DNA of 64,000 nucleotides from Candidatus Sumerlaeota bacterium. GTDB taxonomy: Bacteria > Sumerlaeota > Sumerlaeia > Sumerlaeales > Sumerlaeaceae. A model generated the notes under the pieces. The model had not been told where the DNA came from and ran no database searches. It saw only the letters and a list, made by a program, of their open reading frames with translations. Where the stretch lies: contig JADFCV010000005.1 in the NCBI GenBank assembly GCA_017161655.1, positions 7,480 through 71,479 of the forward strand. Reading direction: 5' to 3'. The translations under genes were made by a program, and so were the position numbers. Of the stretch, positions 4,445 to 14,980 are shown in pieces (the first letter of the stretch is position 1; each line of letters opens with the position of its first letter).

Positions 4445-5599
<1,155 letters not shown>

Positions 5600-5738: not shown

Positions 5739-5798
5739 TTGGGTGATATTGGTAAATCACGGCAGATTTTGTGGAAATTTGGTGAACTGTGGCAGACG
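5739..5798 (+). promoter_or_regulatory. Six-unit, 10-bp-periodic MraZ-box array over the mraZ start
   Basis: Six consecutive decamers begin at 5739, 5749, 5759, 5769, 5779 and 5789: TTGGGTGATA, TTGGTAAATC, ACGGCAGATT, TTGTGGAAAT, TTGGTGAACT, GTGGCAGACG. Each has a GG-containing core in the same phase. E. coli MraZ represses its own operon by binding TGGGN direct repeats spaced by 5 nt, which is the same 10-bp period. Here the last two units cover the ribosome-binding region and the GTG start of mraZ. Autoregulation of the whole dcw operon is therefore likely. The period is seen directly; protein binding is inferred. Confidence 0.7.
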
Positions 5799-6295
5799 AA
5801 ATTAAAAATATCGCACAGCCCTCCGCACGGCAGATTGGCTTCTATGGCAATCATGAGGTGCGGCTGGATGCAGCAAATCGTCTGCCCATTCCTGCCAAAT
5901 TCCGCGAAGTGTTGGAGTCGCGTTTCGGTCACGAAGCCTATCCTCTCATGTTGATGCCTGGCGAGGAGTGTATCCGCGTTATGCCCTATGCGGTATGGAG
6001 CGAGATGTGCCGCCAGCTTGAGCAGGCTTCCCGTTTTTCACCCGAAACGGCAAGGCTGAAAATGTCGCTTTATGGCAACACGGCTGACTGCGAGCTCGAT
6101 ACACAGAACCGTATCCGGATTCCGGCTGGGCTCTGCAAGCTCATCGAGCTCGAACGCGATGCCGTGGTTGTCGGTTGTGGCGACGAGATGGCAATCTGGC
6201 GTCGTCACGCGTGGGAGAAATTTAACGCAGAGGTCAGCAAGAATCTAAGCCAGTTGATGAGCGAGTTTAGTCGGAGTCAGATACACAGGGAGTGA
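5789..6295 (+). CDS. mraZ: Transcriptional regulator MraZ
   Basis: The protein has 168 residues with a GTG start. It has two SpoVT/AbrB-like MraZ repeats: the first begins at NHEVRLDAANRLPIPAKFRE (about residues 21-40), and the second at DCELDTQNRIRIPAGLCKLI (about 109-128). MraZ proteins form rings that bind tandem boxes in front of their own operon and repress the division/cell-wall genes. About 16 residues precede the usual N-terminus; no alternative in-frame ATG, GTG or TTG lies closer, so the GTG is kept. The gene overlaps rsmH by GTGA. It is the first gene of the dcw operon and sits directly under the box array. Confidence 0.95.
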   Translation: MADEIKNIAQPSARQIGFYGNHEVRLDAANRLPIPAKFREVLESRFGHEAYPLMLMPGEECIRVMPYAVWSEMCRQLEQASRFSPETARLKMSLYGNTADCELDTQNRIRIPAGLCKLIELERDAVVVGCGDEMAIWRRHAWEKFNAEVSKNLSQLMSEFSRSQIHRE

Positions 6296-7257
6296 ACGGC
6301 GAGGGCGTTATTCATAGGCCCGTACTTTTAGAGGAGGTTGTGAGGCTGTTGGAACCAAAGCCTGGCATGGTGGTGGTGGACGCGACAGTGGGTGGCGGCG
6401 GTCATGCAGCCGCCCTCCTGCGACAAGTTTGCCCTGGTGGGTTTCTGCTGGGCATCGATCGTGACCCGCAGGCTGCGGAGCTTGCGGAGCGGGCGTTGGT
6501 AAGAGCTGGTTTCACCCGCGGACGTCACTTCGACATCGAGGTGCGGCGGTTCTCTTCCGTCGACGAGGCGCTGGCCCGCCGCCGCATCTCGGGTGTCGAT
6601 CGGGTTCTCGCCGATTTGGGCGTGTCGAGCATGCATCTCGACGTTGCTGAGCGAGGCTTCAGTCTCAAACGCGAGGGCCCGCTCGACATGCGGATGGATC
6701 CCACGGATCCCAGCCTTCCCACCGCAGCTGACATTGTGAACGAGGCGTCTGAGGAAGAACTCACGCGGATTTTTCGCGACTTCGGGGAAGAACGTTGGGC
6801 GCGCAGAATTGCGCGGGCTATCGTGAGGCGGCGACAAGAACGCCCCATCACTAGCACGACAGAGCTGCGCGAAGTGGTTGCGGCGGCGATTCCCCGCAAA
6901 CACTGGCCTCCAACGATAGACCCCGCGACGCGAGTGTTCCAGGCGCTACGGATCGCGGTCAACGCTGAGCTGGAGGAGCTAGATCTCTTTCTGGCGAAGC
7001 TGCCCACAATCCTGAAACCGTCAGGACGGGCGGCCGTCATTAGCTTTCACTCGTTGGAGGACCGACGCGTGAAGCAGGTCTTTCGCGAATTGAGCCGCGA
7101 GTGCACCTGTCCGCCCGAGTGGCCTATTTGCCGATGTGAGCGCAAAGCAAAGTGGCGTCTCATCACGGGCAAACCGGTCACCGCGAGTGAGGAAGAGATC
7201 CAGATGAACCCGCGCAGCAGAAGCGCGAAGTTGCGAGTCGTTGAGCGGCTGGCATAG
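6292..7257 (+). CDS. rsmH: 16S rRNA (cytosine-1402-N4)-methyltransferase
   Basis: The 321-residue protein (family usual ~310) starts at a GTG within the mraZ stop (GTGA). Family motifs: HRPVLLEEVV at the N-terminus, the SAM loop DATVGGGGHAAALL, DLGVSSMHLD, GPLDMRMDP, and the C-terminal ISFHSLEDRRVKQVFRE. It methylates N4 of C1402 in 16S rRNA at the ribosomal P site. It is the standard second gene of dcw clusters and translationally coupled to mraZ here. Confidence 0.97.
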   Translation: MNGEGVIHRPVLLEEVVRLLEPKPGMVVVDATVGGGGHAAALLRQVCPGGFLLGIDRDPQAAELAERALVRAGFTRGRHFDIEVRRFSSVDEALARRRISGVDRVLADLGVSSMHLDVAERGFSLKREGPLDMRMDPTDPSLPTAADIVNEASEEELTRIFRDFGEERWARRIARAIVRRRQERPITSTTELREVVAAAIPRKHWPPTIDPATRVFQALRIAVNAELEELDLFLAKLPTILKPSGRAAVISFHSLEDRRVKQVFRELSRECTCPPEWPICRCERKAKWRLITGKPVTASEEEIQMNPRSRSAKLRVVERLA

Positions 7258-7326: not shown

Positions 7327-7860
7327 ATGACGAACGTGACGAAGCCAAAACGTCTTATAACTCACAGCGGCGGAAACGACGGGGAGAATCCGGGCAAAAA
7401 CGATCGGCGCATTCGGGCCGGGTATTTCTTCCGCGTGCTTTTGCTGTTTCTGTTGGGCGTTGGGCTAGCAACCTTGCACGTGGCTCTCTCCTTTTTCGCC
7501 CGCGAGTACGAGCTAGAGCGGTTAGCTCTCCAGCGCCGAACCGAAAGCTTGTTCCGCGAGAAGCAGTGGCTTGAGGTGGAGAGGCGCCTCGTCACCGAGC
7601 AGTTGGCTGTTCGCGAGCGGGCATGCCGTGAGCTGGAGCTGGTGGAAGTCAAGCGAATTCAGTGTGAGACAGGCATGGTGCCCGAAGCGCTTGTCGAAAA
7701 GTATCGCGGGGCCGGGACCGGAACCCAGCTTGCCTCCGTGTCTGCTCAAAGTCCCACGAGTTTGGCGTTCTGGCAGGACATGATTGAGCAAATTGCGGCA
7801 GTCACAAAGGTGCAGGCCGCGAGTGCACCAGAAGGCTCTGAGTCAAACCCCATGCCTTAA
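7327..7860 (+). CDS. ftsL: FtsL-like cell-division protein
   Basis: This protein of 177 residues has a bitopic layout: a basic cytoplasmic N-terminus, one membrane segment (FFRVLLLFLLGVGLATLHVAL, about 37-57), then a charged heptad-like coiled coil (about 63-110, rich in E/R/L), and a loose Pro/Ser-rich tail. That layout, the size and the place between rsmH and ftsI are the hallmarks of FtsL, which links FtsB/FtsQ to the FtsWI synthase at the septum. FtsL is poorly conserved in sequence, so the call rests on topology and synteny. The C-terminal tail is longer than in E. coli FtsL (121 aa). Confidence 0.7.
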   Translation: MTNVTKPKRLITHSGGNDGENPGKNDRRIRAGYFFRVLLLFLLGVGLATLHVALSFFAREYELERLALQRRTESLFREKQWLEVERRLVTEQLAVRERACRELELVEVKRIQCETGMVPEALVEKYRGAGTGTQLASVSAQSPTSLAFWQDMIEQIAAVTKVQAASAPEGSESNPMP

Positions 7861-8056
7861 CGAAACACTAAAGGAGGTTAAGACGAGGAGAGCGTAGAGA
7901 AAAGTTTAGCCAGATCGGCGGCAGTGCGACAGTTCCCGTTGATGCGCTAGCTGACAAAAGTTGACCGCTGGAAATTTGTTCCTGTGGATGCTCTTGCTGA
8001 AGTTCCGGATGCCGCTGATGCAGATCAAGCAGATAGGTGACAGTTGCAAATAAAAG

Positions 8057-8082
8057 AAGGGCGAAACTGGCCTTTCGCCCTT
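8057..8082 (-). terminator. Hairpin with T-rich tail on the minus strand
   Basis: Perfect 10-bp stem AAGGGCGAAA/TTTCGCCCTT with a 6-nt loop. On the minus strand it is followed by CTTTTATTTG, as in an intrinsic terminator; on the plus strand there is no U-tract. No minus-strand gene is evident, so an antisense or small RNA end, or a plus-strand RNA structure, are the options. Confidence 0.45.
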
Positions 8083-8220
8083 CAAGCTCCTGCTCCCGCG
8101 ACGATGAATTCGCGCACGGGTGACATCCCCAGTGCCGGCGAATGCGTCCGCCGATCTGGCTTATCATTCTTGTGGCCGCAATAGATTGTGCCACCAATGA
8201 ATAGTCAATAATAAAAGACG

Positions 8221-8253
8221 AAGCCTCCGTGGCCGCTCGCGGCACGGAGGCTT
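8221..8253 (-). terminator. Second hairpin with T-rich tail on the minus strand
   Basis: An 11-bp stem (AAGCCTCCGTG/CACGGAGGCTT) is extended by an inner CCGC/GCGG stem. On the minus strand it is followed by CGTCTTTTATTATT. It shares the flank ATAAAAGA with the hairpin at 8057. It lies 49 bp before the ftsI start. Confidence 0.45.
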
Positions 8254-8301
8254 GCACTGTCAACAAGACCGATTCAAAAGTATTGCCAGGGTGCGCAAGC
8301 C

Positions 8302-10833
8302 GTGAATGAAGACAGGTCACAGTGGATTATCACTGCTCTCCAGCTGCTGATGGTGCTGGCAGCAGCAATGGTTGTCCACCGCCTCTATGAGCTACAGTTT
8401 GTCAAGGCGGAGCACTACTGGAAACATGCCAAGGCAAGGCATGAGTACACCATCAAAAAAATCCCTTCGCGCGGTAAGATTTATGACCGCTCGTCGCGCG
8501 AGCTCGCTGTCACCGAGATGGTTCCCACCATCTACGTTTCGCCCTTTCTCATTGCCGATGAAGTCAAACGCGATCTCGCCGCCGACATTTCGCGAGAACT
8601 TGGTTTGGATTTCGACACAGTTTATGGTCGGCTGACGCGCTCGCGTGGCGACCAGGTCCTCGTCCGCCGAGCATCGCGCGAACAAATTGATCGCCTCATG
8701 CTTCTTGCCCAGATGTATCGGGAAAAATATAAGGGCGATAAGAAAAAGGGCCCCGCCGTCCCCAGAAATGCTTTTTACATTCAGGAAGAGAACAGGCGCA
8801 CTTATCCTTTTGGCGAGCTTGCGGCTCATGTCGTTGGCTACACCATGCTCGACGACACCGGCGACAACACGGGAGTGGCAGGGGTTGAGGGGTCGTACAA
8901 TGAGTACCTTCGCGGCAAATTTGGTGTGGATCGCGCGCTTCGCACTGCTACCGGAATGCCACTCGAACCTATTGATCCCGCAGTCTTAGCATCAACTTAC
9001 GGCAACAGCATTGTTCTCACCATTGATCGCGACATTCAGGATGTGACTGAAAAAGCTTTGCGAAAGCAGGTTCTTGCTTCTGCCGCTGATGCCGGCGTCG
9101 CTATTGTCTATGCAGTCAAGACGGGGGAAGTTCTTGGCATGGCCTCCGTTCCTAGCTTCAATCTGAGCGACGTGCAACATGCCTCGCCACTGGCTATGCG
9201 CAACCGAGCCATTAGCGACGCCATTGAGCCAGGCTCTGTCATGAAAATATTCACCTATGCCTCGCTCATCGAAGAGAACAAAGTCCACTCGTTTCAGGAA
9301 ATTGTCGACTGTTCGGGGGGACGTTGGACAGTAGCCGGCCGGACTGTTGTGGATTCCCATGCAATGGGAGCAGTACCCCTCGTCACAGCCTTCGCTCAGT
9401 CGAGTAATGTTGCTGCAGCAAAACTCGCCATGACACGTCTTCAGCCTGCTCGTTTCTACAAGCACCTCGTGGATTTTGGTTTTGGCGAAAAAACAGGAAT
9501 TGATCTACCTGGTGAAGCGCCTGGCCTTTTGCGCCACGTGAAAGACTGGACAGCGCAGAGTGTCGCCTCGCTAGCCTACGGTTATGAGTTGCAGGTGACA
9601 GCTATCCAGGTTGCAGCTGCCGCAGCCGCAATCGCGAACAATGGCATCTACATGAAGCCTCACGTCGTGAAAGAAATACGCAATTTTCGTGGGGAGATAG
9701 TTCAGCAGATTCAGCCCGAGAAAGTGCGGAGAGTGTGTAGCCCGTCAACGACCAAGCGGATGCTGGAGCTTATGGAAGCGGTCGTGCGCGAAGGCACCGG
9801 TAAAGCGGCGGCTGTTCCAAATTACCGTGTCGGAGGTAAGACCGGTACCACCATAAAACTGGATCCTGAGACCAAGCGTTACTCGCGTGGCAATTACATC
9901 GGTTCGTTCTGCGGCATTGCCCCCCTGGAAGACCCCGAAATTTGCATCTACATCTGGATTGATAATCCGCGAGGCGGCGCTTACTACGGCGGCCAGGTTG
10001 CTGCGCCTGTTTTCAAAGAGATTGCTCAGGAAACGCTCAAGATCCTCCGCATTCCGCCCAGTCAGAATGCGGATGAAGAACCTCCGCCGAAGAGCATTGA
10101 AGTGGCACTTGACGAGATTCGAAACCTTCATGGTGTGCCTGCTGTCGTGGAGCGCCCTCCTGAGGACGAAGAAATCGCGCCGGGCTGTATGCCCAACCTT
10201 CGAGGGCTGACCATGCGCGAGGCGCATGAACGCCTAGCCAAGCTGGGGCTTGCTTTCGAATCGCAAGGCAGTGGTGTGGTCGTGGACCAGATTCCCCGCC
10301 CTTATGAAACTTTGGATTCCTCACAGCCAGTGCAACTTGTCTTCGGTTCGCCTGAGCAGTATCGAGAAAGTTTGTTGGCGAACGAAAACATGTTAGCTCA
10401 AGCGACGCCAAGACCTGAGCCGCACGAGCTTCTGCCATCGGTTTCGACTCCGAAACTCAAGTTGGTTTCGCATCGGAAAGAAATTGAGATCCCTCTCGGC
10501 AGCGACTCGGCGCAAGATTCCTCAACCGTGGCCTTGAGAGGATTGCCATCTCCCCAACCGTTGGCTTCACCAGCAGCGACGCCGCTAACGTCCGCAACCG
10601 AGGAGGATCCTGACCAGCGTGTTTATCGTGGCCCTGCCCCAGACGCAGGACGCTCCGTTTGGAAGAAGGTTCTCGAGAAGAACGAGGATATGCCTGCTGG
10701 GGCTCCTGCCGGCAACACCCCAGGGGCAACACCAGCGTCTTCCCCCGCAACTAGCAAGAGTCTCAGGAGTGCATACGATATCCGGCTGAGCTCGAATGAG
10801 CCAACGCAGACAAGTGACGACAGCGAAAGGTAA
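8302..10833 (+). CDS. ftsI: Septal peptidoglycan transpeptidase FtsI (class B PBP) with PASTA domain
   Basis: The protein is long at 843 residues. It has an N-terminal membrane anchor (about 9-26), the PBP dimerisation domain, and a transpeptidase domain with all three catalytic motifs: SVMK (S312), SSN (367-369) and KTGT (513-516). A PASTA domain follows (about 630-682). The last 160 residues are a Pro/Ala/Ser-rich, probably disordered tail not found in E. coli FtsI (588 aa). It cross-links septal peptidoglycan with FtsW. The start is GTG 8302; its upstream region is the non-coding insert, so it may have its own promoter. Confidence 0.93.
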   Translation: MNEDRSQWIITALQLLMVLAAAMVVHRLYELQFVKAEHYWKHAKARHEYTIKKIPSRGKIYDRSSRELAVTEMVPTIYVSPFLIADEVKRDLAADISRELGLDFDTVYGRLTRSRGDQVLVRRASREQIDRLMLLAQMYREKYKGDKKKGPAVPRNAFYIQEENRRTYPFGELAAHVVGYTMLDDTGDNTGVAGVEGSYNEYLRGKFGVDRALRTATGMPLEPIDPAVLASTYGNSIVLTIDRDIQDVTEKALRKQVLASAADAGVAIVYAVKTGEVLGMASVPSFNLSDVQHASPLAMRNRAISDAIEPGSVMKIFTYASLIEENKVHSFQEIVDCSGGRWTVAGRTVVDSHAMGAVPLVTAFAQSSNVAAAKLAMTRLQPARFYKHLVDFGFGEKTGIDLPGEAPGLLRHVKDWTAQSVASLAYGYELQVTAIQVAAAAAAIANNGIYMKPHVVKEIRNFRGEIVQQIQPEKVRRVCSPSTTKRMLELMEAVVREGTGKAAAVPNYRVGGKTGTTIKLDPETKRYSRGNYIGSFCGIAPLEDPEICIYIWIDNPRGGAYYGGQVAAPVFKEIAQETLKILRIPPSQNADEEPPPKSIEVALDEIRNLHGVPAVVERPPEDEEIAPGCMPNLRGLTMREAHERLAKLGLAFESQGSGVVVDQIPRPYETLDSSQPVQLVFGSPEQYRESLLANENMLAQATPRPEPHELLPSVSTPKLKLVSHRKEIEIPLGSDSAQDSSTVALRGLPSPQPLASPAATPLTSATEEDPDQRVYRGPAPDAGRSVWKKVLEKNEDMPAGAPAGNTPGATPASSPATSKSLRSAYDIRLSSNEPTQTSDDSER

Positions 10834-10840
10834 CCCGACC

Positions 10841-12412
10841 GTGGAAACGATCCAGTGGAAGCTTGGTGAACTTTTTGCCCACGCAAGACTTGAGCTTGCC
10901 GGGCTACCCGCCGACGTCGTTGTGACGAGTCTCACAGACAATTCTAATCGGGTCGACCCAGGCGCCTTATTCGTTGCTATCAGGGGGAGTGCGCGAGATG
11001 GCCACGCCTTCATTTCTGATGCTGTGGAAAAAGGGGCACGTGTTGTCCTGACAGAGCAACCGATTCCTCCGTACGAAGGTGTGCATATCCTGCAAGTGGC
11101 CGACACGAAGGAAGTGTTGGGGCGCCTTGCTCATGCGTGGTATGGGAATCCTACCGCGCACATGCTCGTTTTCGGAGTGTCGGGCACAAACGGCAAAACG
11201 ACGACGACCTATTTGCTCGAAAGTATATGCCACGCTGCGGGTGTGAATGCTGGAGTGGTGGGGACAATTGAGTACCGTTTTGCCGGCCACAGCGAACCAG
11301 CAGCAAACACCACACCCAGTGCCCTTGTGCTTGCTAACTTATTTGCACGTATGCGCCGCAGTGGTGTGGGGGCAGTTGCCATGGAAGTCTCCTCCCACGC
11401 AGCTCATCAGAAGCGGATTGCAGGGATTGAATTCGATGTGGGGATTCTTACGAATATCACCCAGGACCATCTCGACTATCACGGCACAATGGAGGCTTAC
11501 GCCAGCGCAAAGAAATCCTTCTATTTCGATTTCTTGCTGCGTCCACGCACGAAGGGCACAAAGCCTTGGGCAGTTTTTAATTACGACGATTCTTGGGGAC
11601 GTAGCTTCTCCAGGGAATTTCCTGGAGAATTTCTCACCTACGGTCTTGAGCAAGAAGCCCAGCTCTGCCCGAAAAATCTCCAGCTGTCACCACGTGGCAT
11701 CGCGTTCGAGGTCGTTCTCCCCGATGGACGCGAAATCGCGATTTCTTCACCCCTTTTAGGTTACTTCAACGTCCAGAATATCCTCGGGGCTATCGGCGCA
11801 GCCTACGCCGCTGGCATTGATCCCCAGGCAATCGTACGTGGCATCGCGGAGCTGAAGGGGGTTCCGGGGCGTTTCGAACGAGTGGACGTTGGACAACCTT
11901 TTGCCGTGATCGTTGACTATGCCCACACGCCAGACGCCTTGCAGCGAGTGCTTGCCAATGCTCGGCAAATGACGCCTCAAGGGCGAATCATCACCGTGTT
12001 TGGGTGTGGGGGCGAGCGTGATCCCAGCAAGCGTCCTCTGATGGGCCAGGCTGTCGCCTCTGTCAGCGATTACGTCGTTGTGACGAACGACAATCCACGA
12101 CGAGAGGATCCCGAGGCGATCGCGGCGATGATCGTGCAAGGCATTCGCCAGACCTCCTTACCGGATGAGCAGTGGCGAGTGATTCTCGATCGCCGAGCCG
12201 CCATAGCTCACGCCTTCGATGTAGCGCGTAAGGGCGACTGTGTTCTCATTGCAGGGAAAGGAGCTGAACCCTACATTGATATCGGCGGCGTAAAGATTCC
12301 CTATGATGACCGCGAGACAGCGCGGCAGCTCCTTCGTGAACGTTTCGATGTGCTCGGCAGACGCAAACGTGGCAAGTCTAAGGAGCGTCTGAATGAGCCG
12401 CAAAAGGGATGA
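10841..12412 (+). CDS. murE: UDP-MurNAc-L-Ala-D-Glu:meso-diaminopimelate ligase
   Basis: This cytoplasmic Mur ligase adds the third stem residue to the peptidoglycan precursor. Domain order is standard: N-terminal UDP-binding part with SLTDNSNRVDPGALFVAIRG, ATP loop GVSGTNGKTTTTYLLE (about 110-125), central domain, and C-terminal domain containing DNPRREDP (about 416-423). DNPR is the meso-diaminopimelate specificity signature, while lysine enzymes differ there, so the wall is predicted to be of the DAP type. The GTG at 10841 is chosen because AAAGG lies 10 nt upstream and it avoids overlap; an ATG at 10796 would overlap ftsI by 38 bp. It ends inside the murF leader. Confidence 0.95.
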   Translation: METIQWKLGELFAHARLELAGLPADVVVTSLTDNSNRVDPGALFVAIRGSARDGHAFISDAVEKGARVVLTEQPIPPYEGVHILQVADTKEVLGRLAHAWYGNPTAHMLVFGVSGTNGKTTTTYLLESICHAAGVNAGVVGTIEYRFAGHSEPAANTTPSALVLANLFARMRRSGVGAVAMEVSSHAAHQKRIAGIEFDVGILTNITQDHLDYHGTMEAYASAKKSFYFDFLLRPRTKGTKPWAVFNYDDSWGRSFSREFPGEFLTYGLEQEAQLCPKNLQLSPRGIAFEVVLPDGREIAISSPLLGYFNVQNILGAIGAAYAAGIDPQAIVRGIAELKGVPGRFERVDVGQPFAVIVDYAHTPDALQRVLANARQMTPQGRIITVFGCGGERDPSKRPLMGQAVASVSDYVVVTNDNPRREDPEAIAAMIVQGIRQTSLPDEQWRVILDRRAAIAHAFDVARKGDCVLIAGKGAEPYIDIGGVKIPYDDRETARQLLRERFDVLGRRKRGKSKERLNEPQKG

Positions 12413-12419
12413 GTCCGTG

Positions 12420-13814
12420 ATGGAAATCTCGCTCCAGGAAATAGCAGCCTTTTTGGGTGCCCAGGTCGTCGGGGATGTGGCCAACATTGTCGTGCGCAAT
12501 GTATCTACTGACTCCCGCACATTGCGTCCGGGAGATCTGTTTGTCGCTTTGCGTGGAACGGCCTTTGATGCTCACCAATTTGTTCCCGAGGTTGCACTCG
12601 CCGGTGCCTGTGCAGCAGTCGTTCATCACGAAGTCCAGGTGCCTCGGCCCCTTCCGCAATTGGTGGTTCCCGACACACTTTTTGCGCTGGGCGAGATCGC
12701 CAAGCTTTGGCGGCAGAAGCTAAGTCATGTTGAGGTTGCTGCGCTTGTCGGGTCCAGCGGGAAGACAACCGTAAAAGAAATGGCCGCAAAAATGCTCGCC
12801 CGGACGAGACCGACGCTTGCCACCACCGGAAATCTCAACAACCTCATTGGCGTCCCCCTGACGCTATTTCGCCTGGACTCTTCTCACCAGGCCGCTGTCG
12901 TGGAACTTGGCATGAATGCCCCGGGTGAGCTACGACGCCTCACGGAGATCGTTCAGCCAAACTGCGTGGCCCTGACAAACATTCGCAATGCCCACGTTGG
13001 CATGTTCAAAACTCCGGAAGATCTTTACCTTGCCAAAGTGGAAAGTCTCCAATACGCAGCACCCGGGGCAACCTTTGTCATGAACGCCGACGATCCAAGC
13101 TCACAGCGTGCTTATCGCGAATTTGGCGCAGGCCGTCACGTGATACGTTTTGGCCTGGCCCCTGAGGCTGACATCCGCGCAGAAAGGATCGAACCCCTAG
13201 TTCCCTTTGGTTATGCGTTTCAGCTTATCATGCCCGATGTGGCTCCGCTGCCCATTGAATTGCGGATGTTTGGTCAGCACAACGTCATGAATGCCCTGGC
13301 TGCCGCTGCGATTGCGTGGCAGTTCCGGGTGTCTCCTGCGGATATCGTAACAGCGCTCCGTGAATTTAGGCCTGCGCACAACCGCAGCGAAGTGGAGGAA
13401 ATAGCCGGCGTTTTCATCGTCAAAGACTATTACAATGCTAGTCCTGCAGCGGTGGAGACAGCCTTGCTCAGTCTTCAAGATTTCTGTGTGCCGGGGCGTC
13501 GCTTCGCTGTTCTTGCTGACATGCTCGAGCTCGGCACATGGGAGCACATGTATCACGAGCGCATTGGAATTGTCGCAGCACACGTGGGGCTTACAAAGCT
13601 GTTTTGTTACGGACCCCGTTCTCGCATTACTGCTCAAGCAGCGGCTAAGGCTGGTCTGAATGCCGAACACTTTGACGACATCGAGAAGCTGGCGCAGACC
13701 TTGTCCAGCATGGTGAAGGCGGGCGACCTTGTTCTGATTAAGGGGTCACGTCTCATGAAGCTCGAGCGAGTTTACGACTATCTGAAAGGAGCTTTGACGA
13801 GCTCGGCACAATGA
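12420..13814 (+). CDS. murF: UDP-MurNAc-tripeptide:D-Ala-D-Ala ligase
   Basis: MurF completes the UDP-MurNAc pentapeptide. The protein shows the MurF N-terminal substrate motif (STDSRTLRPGDLFVALRG), ATP loop ALVGSSGKTTVKEM (about 108-121), GNLNNLIGVPLTL and ELGMNAPGEL. The preferred start is ATG 12420, 8 bp after the murE stop, with AAAAGGGAT upstream; an earlier ATG at 12393 would overlap murE by 20 bp. The end overlaps the mraY start by ATGA, so the two are translationally coupled. Confidence 0.95.
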   Translation: MEISLQEIAAFLGAQVVGDVANIVVRNVSTDSRTLRPGDLFVALRGTAFDAHQFVPEVALAGACAAVVHHEVQVPRPLPQLVVPDTLFALGEIAKLWRQKLSHVEVAALVGSSGKTTVKEMAAKMLARTRPTLATTGNLNNLIGVPLTLFRLDSSHQAAVVELGMNAPGELRRLTEIVQPNCVALTNIRNAHVGMFKTPEDLYLAKVESLQYAAPGATFVMNADDPSSQRAYREFGAGRHVIRFGLAPEADIRAERIEPLVPFGYAFQLIMPDVAPLPIELRMFGQHNVMNALAAAAIAWQFRVSPADIVTALREFRPAHNRSEVEEIAGVFIVKDYYNASPAAVETALLSLQDFCVPGRRFAVLADMLELGTWEHMYHERIGIVAAHVGLTKLFCYGPRSRITAQAAAKAGLNAEHFDDIEKLAQTLSSMVKAGDLVLIKGSRLMKLERVYDYLKGALTSSAQ

Positions 13815-14980
13815 TTTACCACCTACTCGATTTTCTCCACCGCAATCAGCTTGCGGGAATCTATGTGAATCCCTTCCAGTTCACGACATTTCGCGCTGCT
13901 ATCGCCCTTATCTTTGCGCTTCTACTGTCGCTCGTCATGGGGCCCAAAATCATTGCAATACTGCGAGCACTCAAAGCTGGCCAACCTATCCGCACCGTGA
14001 CAATTCAAGGTGCCCCCGATCTGTCGCAAATGCACGGAAAGAAAGCTGGGACCCCGACGATGGGAGGTGTTCTGATCCTGCTTTCCATGACCATTCCCGT
14101 GCTGGCACTTTGTGATCTCACGAACCCACTGGTTTGGTTAATGCTGCTTGTGGCCTACGGGTTTGGCGGGATCGGCTTTCTGGACGACTATCTTAAGGTT
14201 ACCAAACGCAAATGGGATGGTTTGAGCGCCCGAAACAAAATACTGGGCCAGGTTCTGCTTGGATTATTCGTCGGTTTCTATCTCTATTACTTTGGCCACA
14301 CAGACTTGCTCCCTGTGAAGTACTCCTATCGCGAAGCGGGGAGCGTTGTGGGACCGTGGCGAGGCTACGAATACCTTCTTGTGCCGTTTTTCAAACGCGT
14401 TTATCCCTATCTGGGCGCCTTCTTTCTGCTCTACGCCGTTGTTGTCCTCACGGCATCGTCCAACGCGGTCAATCTCACCGACGGTCTTGATGGGTTGTGC
14501 ATTGGCATCATGACGATTGTCGCTATGACGTATGGTATATTCACTTATGTCGCATGCAGCGAAGCGCTCGCCATGCGCCTTATGTTTCCCCACATTCCGC
14601 GCGCAGATGAAATCGTTGTGTTCCTCGGAGCTCTCGTAGGGGCATGCCTTGGCTTTCTCTGGTACAATTGTTATCCAGCGCAGGTGTTCATGGGCGATAC
14701 TGGTTCGCTATCACTGGGCGGAATGATTGGCACCGTGGCGCTCATTACAAAGCAGGACATTATCCTTCTTGTGGTGGGCGGGATTTTTGTCATCGAAGCT
14801 CTCTCTGTCATTATTCAGGTCAGTGTTTTCAAACTCACCGGACGTCGCGTCTTTCTCATGTCCCCCATTCATCACCACTACGAGCGCAAAGGAATTCCTG
14901 AATCGAAGATTATCATTCGCTTTTGGATTGTGGCGGGGCTTTTGGCGCTTCTTGGCCTTAGCACTCTCAAGCTTCGTTGA
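13811..14980 (+). CDS. mraY: Phospho-MurNAc-pentapeptide transferase (lipid I synthase)
   Basis: This 389-residue integral membrane enzyme (about ten membrane segments) transfers phospho-MurNAc-pentapeptide to undecaprenyl phosphate. Diagnostic motifs: HGKKAGTPTMGG, GFLDDYLKVTKRKWDGLSAR with the catalytic aspartates, NLTDGLDGL, and the C-terminal SPIHHHYERKGIPESKI carrying the MraY-specific histidine cluster. The start overlaps murF (ATGA). In most bacteria murD, ftsW and murG come next; here the cluster stops and a different gene group begins after 194 bp. Confidence 0.97.
   Translation: MIYHLLDFLHRNQLAGIYVNPFQFTTFRAAIALIFALLLSLVMGPKIIAILRALKAGQPIRTVTIQGAPDLSQMHGKKAGTPTMGGVLILLSMTIPVLALCDLTNPLVWLMLLVAYGFGGIGFLDDYLKVTKRKWDGLSARNKILGQVLLGLFVGFYLYYFGHTDLLPVKYSYREAGSVVGPWRGYEYLLVPFFKRVYPYLGAFFLLYAVVVLTASSNAVNLTDGLDGLCIGIMTIVAMTYGIFTYVACSEALAMRLMFPHIPRADEIVVFLGALVGACLGFLWYNCYPAQVFMGDTGSLSLGGMIGTVALITKQDIILLVVGGIFVIEALSVIIQVSVFKLTGRRVFLMSPIHHHYERKGIPESKIIIRFWIVAGLLALLGLSTLKLR

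Follow-up and report, generated by a model that had tools for sequence, protein, structure and literature searches.

Few bacterial gene clusters are as well conserved as the division and wall (dcw) cluster. In plasmid attenuators of the pT181 type, the folding of a leader RNA decides on read-through, and an antisense RNA overlaps that leader. FtsO is an RNA derived from ftsI. In sponge RNAs of the Csr/Rsm kind, one short single-stranded motif recurs many times within a single RNA, and leaders in Bacillus carry stabilising Shine–Dalgarno (SD) sequences. Papers on antisense-controlled transcription attenuators include PMC3753616 and PMC4878617; PMC6156199 deals with noncoding RNAs excised from E. 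coli mRNAs.

We compared these systems with the spacer between ftsL and ftsI in the window, by which we mean the whole stretch of 64,000 nucleotides that was analysed. As in pT181-type attenuators, a leader fold is overlapped by an antisense RNA, here a predicted one, with its own terminator. Unlike them, the spacer is chromosomal and lies between two genes of an operon, its helix spans about 250 nt, its loop carries repeats, the helix also occurs in families without the antisense terminator, and the regulation is putative. With the excised mRNA-derived RNAs it shares the character of a division-cluster RNA adjoining ftsI, but it is an untranslated spacer and not a coding region. The presence of a short motif in many copies within one RNA recalls the Csr/Rsm sponges; the motif, however, is pyrimidine-rich on the plus strand, and no match to CsrA was found in the genome (rated 93% complete), for which reason a CsrA sponge RNA was rejected. 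The sequence AAAGGAGG, which lacks a start codon, is similar to the stabilising SD sequences of Bacillus but is followed by a long-range helix and stands between two genes, and its stabilising role is putative.

A search of the whole window against 4227 Rfam families at gathering thresholds yielded no matches. When E values up to 5 were admitted for positions 7700–8500, the only match was a chance one to a human lncRNA (8312–8366), far below threshold, and 13 relatives yielded none at E values up to 1. In the literature on the phylum and on dcw, ftsI, ftsL and noncoding RNA, the partial texts of the matches listed do not name the element, and the available portion of PMC8092238 does not mention ftsI, dcw, noncoding or small RNA. 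The element is rated as a probable cis-acting operon RNA whose long-range architecture is unusual and in which an antisense terminator is embedded.

A noncoding, structured spacer between ftsL and ftsI

The dcw cluster of the window consists of mraZ (5789–6295), rsmH (6292–7257), ftsL (7327–7860), ftsI (8302–10833), murE (10796–12412), murF (12393–13814) and mraY (13811–14980). Pfam confirmed mraZ, rsmH, ftsI (Transpeptidase, PBP_dimer and PASTA domains) and, at murE, a Mur ligase; ftsL had no Pfam match and was named by position, and murF and mraY were named by place and look. In addition to its PASTA domain, FtsI has a long proline-rich tail. The intergenic gaps from mraZ to mraY are −4, 69, 441, −38, −20 and −4 nt, the gap of 441 nt being that between ftsL and ftsI. 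The earlier note had described 441 bp without a good gene inside a packed cluster, and this proved true, with the remaining gaps ranging from −38 to 69. On either strand the spacer folded better than each one of 100 dinucleotide shuffles, with z values of −2.9 and −3.1.

The spacer is noncoding and structured. It was taken as noncoding because its longest frame (150 aa, minus strand, 7868–8320) has no Pfam match and because substitutions relative to two relatives show no preference for any of the three phases (50/43/46 and 48/39/40); a protein-coding spacer was rejected on the same grounds. The genome of the window (G000, 3.1 Mb) has relatives in the same genus (G001) and the same family (G005). 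Weak tblastn matches of the minus frame in G001, G003, G005 and G002 (best 2.8e-6) were ascribed to DNA conservation, because the repeats leave the minus strand few stops.

MraZ boxes are direct repeats of TGGGN spaced by about one helical turn. They were considered for the spacer and rejected, as its motif differs and is spaced by 6 and 12–14. Upstream of mraZ, the sequence TGGAGAAAAATGGGAAATAA (5580–5598) resembles direct repeats of the MraZ-box kind.

The long-range helix P1 and its spread

The strongest feature of the spacer is P1, a perfect 14-base inverted repeat on the plus strand. Its 5′ arm (AGCCAGATCGGCGG, 7908–7921) and 3′ arm (CCGCCGATCTGGCT, 8148–8161) enclose a loop of 226 bases (7922–8147), and a T-rich stretch (6 T in 10) follows the 3′ arm. 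Across the eight genomes of family f1, all 112 of 112 cells are paired over the 14 pairs, with double (compensatory) changes in 8 of the 14 and with 7 G·U against 0 A·C. When the partner was slid, pairing in these eight genomes fell to 18–43%; when the 3′ strands were swapped among them, the observed value was reached in 0 of 2000 trials. The earlier note had allowed for a fold of the plus-strand RNA that would set the FtsI level, and had proposed covariation as a test. The effect on FtsI is putative. The compensatory changes speak in favour of such a fold, and strongly, but through P1, a helix that the note did not describe.

The wobble bias and the covariation together identify P1 in f1, at the level of sequence, as a helix of plus-strand RNA. 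Duplex stability favoured the plus strand in 19 of 27 genomes and the minus strand in seven, with one tie; at a margin of at least 2 kcal/mol, the count among the eight f1 genomes was five for plus and none for minus. The strand of P1 appears less clear in f7 and f13. Over the 27 loci, in which helices were seeded with Watson–Crick pairs only, the mismatches comprised 12 G·T, five A·C and five others. All five A·C mismatches came from f13 and f7, and three of the five, in G021, G029 and G036, apparently share one position. P1 reaches as many as 23 unbroken pairs in other genomes, as against 14 pairs in the window.

When the whole spacer was used as a DNA query against 99 genomes, the only true matches besides the window were in G001 and G005, at the same place. 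Short matches in G017, G037, G063, G067 and G090 (E 0.005–0.009) were discounted as chance, as was a reverse self-match of hairpin 2 in the window genome. The layout of the spacer was found upstream of ftsI in all eight f1 genomes. The class was represented by 39 genomes, in 34 of which FtsI was found at E ≤ 1e-50, and 33 upstream regions were read (G022, whose region is cut by a contig end, was left out). A P1-like helix was seen by eye upstream of ftsI in 28 of the 33, that is, in 27 loci from 10 families and in G014. By eye, no clear P1-like helix was seen before ftsI in G008, G017, G023, G024 and G034; the gap before ftsI in G024 is about 80 bases. In G039, from another class of the phylum, ftsI stands close behind a small gene and the element is absent.

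In 16 of 33 genomes, none of 60 dinucleotide shuffles reached the best long-range stem in the 520 bases before ftsI; inside ftsI this held for 0 of 27 control stretches. Stems matched by at most three shuffles numbered 19 of 33 upstream and one of 27 inside ftsI. The long-range stem alone was not significant in 14 of 33 genomes, comprising the five without a clear helix and nine with arms picked by eye (G009, G013, G014, G018, G021, G029, G030, G033 and G036). The chosen helix of G013 lies outside the 520 bases, and another stem scored best in G009 and G021. Comparison shows that most of the class has the predicted layout of the element upstream of ftsI.

Each of the two f12 genomes read has a second copy, which stands about 2 kb upstream of ftsI and apparently, by position and look, at the mraZ/rsmH joint. 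The copy in G030 (L078:1155–1471) has AAAGGAGG, a P1 of 17 pairs and 13 GYTCC, and that in G019 (L087:2220–2578, minus strand) has AAAGGAGG, a P1 of 19 pairs and 11 GYTCC. The module looks portable within the dcw cluster. The family alignment covers 565 columns. Further copies may exist elsewhere in the class genomes. Partial arrangements without P1 were also observed, beside genes named from their translations by eye: AAAGGAGG with GYTCC repeats after mraY in G013 (L092, minus strand), and AAGGAGG with GYTCC repeats before ftsZ in G026 (L088, around 440–580).

Hairpins and the TTGACT box in family f1

Two strong hairpins with a shared flank and T-rich tails on the minus strand had been claimed for the spacer, and all of this was confirmed. 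The hairpins lie at 8056–8083 (hairpin 1) and 8221–8253 (hairpin 2), with ATAAAAGA before each (8050–8057 and 8211–8218). Hairpin 1, read on the minus strand, has 11 pairs, a loop of 6 and a T-rich tail at 8055–8048. Hairpin 2 has a stability of −24.5 kcal/mol on either strand and is also present in G001. A 16-base direct repeat, 88% identical, connects the ftsL coding region (7732–7747) with the 5′ arm of hairpin 2 (8223–8238).

The spacer has one perfect 11-pair hairpin; over 300 mononucleotide shuffles, such hairpins numbered 15 in total. Hairpin 1 with its minus-strand T-tract lies inside the loop in all eight f1 genomes, and the plus strand qualifies in one of the eight. Outside f1, a hairpin with a T-tract was found in 2 of 19 loops on either strand. 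In G002, G004, G006 and G007, one pair of hairpin 1 is A·C on the plus strand, which equals G·U on the minus strand. Stability favours the minus strand in six of the eight f1 genomes and the plus strand in G001 (by 0.1) and G003 (by 1.3). Hairpin 1 in f1 is thus a predicted intrinsic terminator of the minus strand. Since its wobbles are those of the minus strand and the wobbles of P1 are those of the plus strand, the two appear to be read from opposite strands.

A TTGACT box, possibly a −35 element, is located at 8203–8208 on the minus strand (AGTCAA on plus), so that hairpin 2 lies between the box and ftsI. AGTCAA occurs 41–49 bases after P1 in seven of the eight f1 genomes, where shuffles give 0.17, and in one of the 19 others; the f1 genome without the box is G007. 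A possible −10 element, TCTATT (8180–8185, minus strand), would stand 17 bases from the box. The same sequence is found at 17 bases in G005, and TCTAAT at 18 bases in G001. No good −10 was found in the remaining four of the seven genomes with the box, and a plain promoter scan listed no site at the position of the putative antisense promoter. The box may instead belong to a plus-strand −10 (TAKAGT) of ftsI.

The box and the terminator have the same narrow distribution, which suggests that together they make up a single short gene for an antisense RNA. Its putative RNA would be about 125 nt long, would run from the TTGACT box to hairpin 1 (8048–8173, minus strand) and would be complementary to the 3′ arm of P1. 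The earlier note had proposed a minus-strand RNA of about 160 nt ending here, between the two hairpins. Of this, the putative end at hairpin 1 is supported by the T-tract (8/8) and the minus-strand G·U pairs (4/8). The proposed extent finds no support: the likelier RNA would measure about 125 nt, with hairpin 2 upstream of its box.

Loop repeats and possible roles of the element

The loop closed by P1 in the window carries YTCCYG on the plus strand at 7933, 7979, 8087 and 8093, and a variant at 8003; the four copies compare with 0.3 expected. The 27 loops, which range in length from 167 to 369 nt, contain 129 copies on the plus strand, as against 23.0 in shuffles, and none on the minus strand. 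The density of YTCCYG was 10.1 per kb in the 33 upstream regions and 0.94 on their minus strand. Inside ftsI it was 0.88 (plus) and 1.85 (minus), and the region preceding ftsI gave 1.47 in 42 other bacteria, which were hand-chosen among 80 FtsI matches listed, the other 38 being unused. The motif is scarce in some loops, with no copy in G007 and one each in G006, G009, G018 and G019. A genome-wide repeat, GYTCCYGYTCCYG, was rejected, as 432 matches were counted in 39 genomes against 966 for the reversed control; in some genomes, G034 and G035 among them, it outnumbers this control. Hits of a three-motif pattern in 12 genomes were scattered, and most of the loci opened had no enclosing helix.

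The reading we favour, at a probability of roughly 40%, is that the spacer encodes, in the orientation of the dcw genes, a cis-acting intercistronic RNA of the plus strand in which P1 attenuates ftsI and the antisense RNA relieves this attenuation. Comparison places, behind ftsL, first the orphan SD and then P1, which closes the loop dotted with YUCCYG. With RNA polymerase at the U-rich stretch, P1 would form behind it and reduce transcription into ftsI, and the FtsI level would thereby be set apart from the tightly packed upstream genes. By pairing with the 3′ arm of P1, the antisense RNA would hinder the helix and allow ftsI to be read. The loop is probably held open by a protein bound to the repeats. 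P1 may thus affect the amount of FtsI. In favour of this reading stand the covariation and plus-strand wobbles of P1, the long-range stems that exceed every shuffle, the strand-specific repeats, the orphan SD, and the minus-strand terminator and TTGACT box with their common distribution.

At least 6 T among the 10 bases 3′ of P1 were found in six of the eight f1 genomes and in 11 of 27 overall. The predicted termination at P1 cannot be general across the class, because the U-rich stretch is absent in 16 of the 27 genomes, including all 11 of f3, f7 and f13, and it is for this reason that we hold attenuation at the probability given. Also against attenuation, a 226-nt loop is unusual for a terminator, and the stem alone falls short of significance in 14 of the 33 genomes. 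Two points weigh against the antisense part: G007 lacks the box, and the −10 is poor in four of the seven genomes that have it.

An unlikely reading is that the segment enclosed by P1 is an independent noncoding RNA acting in trans as a sponge for a YUCCYG-binding protein. Such an RNA could be cut from the dcw transcript (e.g., by RNase III at P1) or have its own promoter. Its ends pair with each other, its loop is filled with one short motif, an RNase III gene is present in the genome, and both f12 genomes read have the second copy at another cluster joint. A free RNA is harder to reconcile with a place before ftsI that is fixed in most of the class and with loops that differ widely in length and sequence; moreover, the window loop has four YTCCYG motifs only, and the binding protein is itself hypothetical.

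We consider it improbable that the loop is a Rho loading site, with Rho-dependent termination before ftsI and P1 merely modulating it. The loop is untranslated, and its folding is weak and near chance (plus-strand z −2.7 to 1.8 over 27 loops, with values below −2 in G007, G009, G015, G019 and G026). Its pyrimidine motifs are most commonly spaced by 6 (19 times) and by 12–14 (21 times), C exceeds G in 21 of the 27 loops, and a Rho gene is present in the genome. However, C is below G in the window, G001, G005, G007 and G011 and equals it in G032, and Rho does not need a covarying P1.

The orphan SD-like sequence AAAGGAGG (7870–7877, plus strand) has no start codon at a fitting distance. Among 30 copies of the element (the 27 loci, the two f12 second copies and G014), an SD-like sequence stands at most 90 nt before P1 in 22, as against 6.3 ± 2.2 in mononucleotide shuffles, and a fitting start codon follows it in two loci only (G029 and G031). 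This steady placement would suit a role for ribosomes: P1 might loop out the segment so that ribosomes at the orphan SD or at the end of ftsL come to lie close to the start of ftsI, or so that they shield the RNA from nucleases. Even taken jointly, we give these two possibilities a slim chance, as the distance from P1 to ftsI is still tens to more than 100 nt, the repeats are left unexplained and the SD was not found in eight of the 30 copies. That the minus-strand antisense RNA is the whole purpose of the spacer and P1 incidental is very improbable, for although the minus-strand terminator is kept in all eight f1 genomes, P1 wobbles as plus-strand RNA there, 7 to 0, and is present in families without the terminator.

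It is possible, if doubtful, that the element represents a class of portable intercistronic RNA modules, with a covarying helix, a YUCCYG protein signal, control over the dcw cluster and, in f1, an antisense switch. If so, the module would so far be found in one class of a little-studied phylum, its long-range helix would loop out hundreds of bases with a signal for an RNA-binding protein, and one family would have gained, as a switch, an antisense RNA with its terminator inside the loop. A conserved RNA element just before ftsI would be a concrete case for RNA control of septal wall synthesis, and the YUCCYG repeats point to an RNA-binding partner. The strand-specific wobble test can separate overlapping RNAs of opposite strands by sequence alone.

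Two further observations concern the surroundings of P1. Near the 3′ end of the loop, GCTTGCCGGC is kept in all six f13 genomes (as GCTCGCCGGC in G031; alignment A3); it resembles the 3′ arm of P1 in f1, and its partner was not found in f13. In L033, L042, L037 and L031, a hairpin was seen by eye directly before P1, with arms that differ between loci and are each self-complementary (GGGAGCC/GGCTCCC, GGGAATC/GATTCCC and GGGATC/GATCCC).
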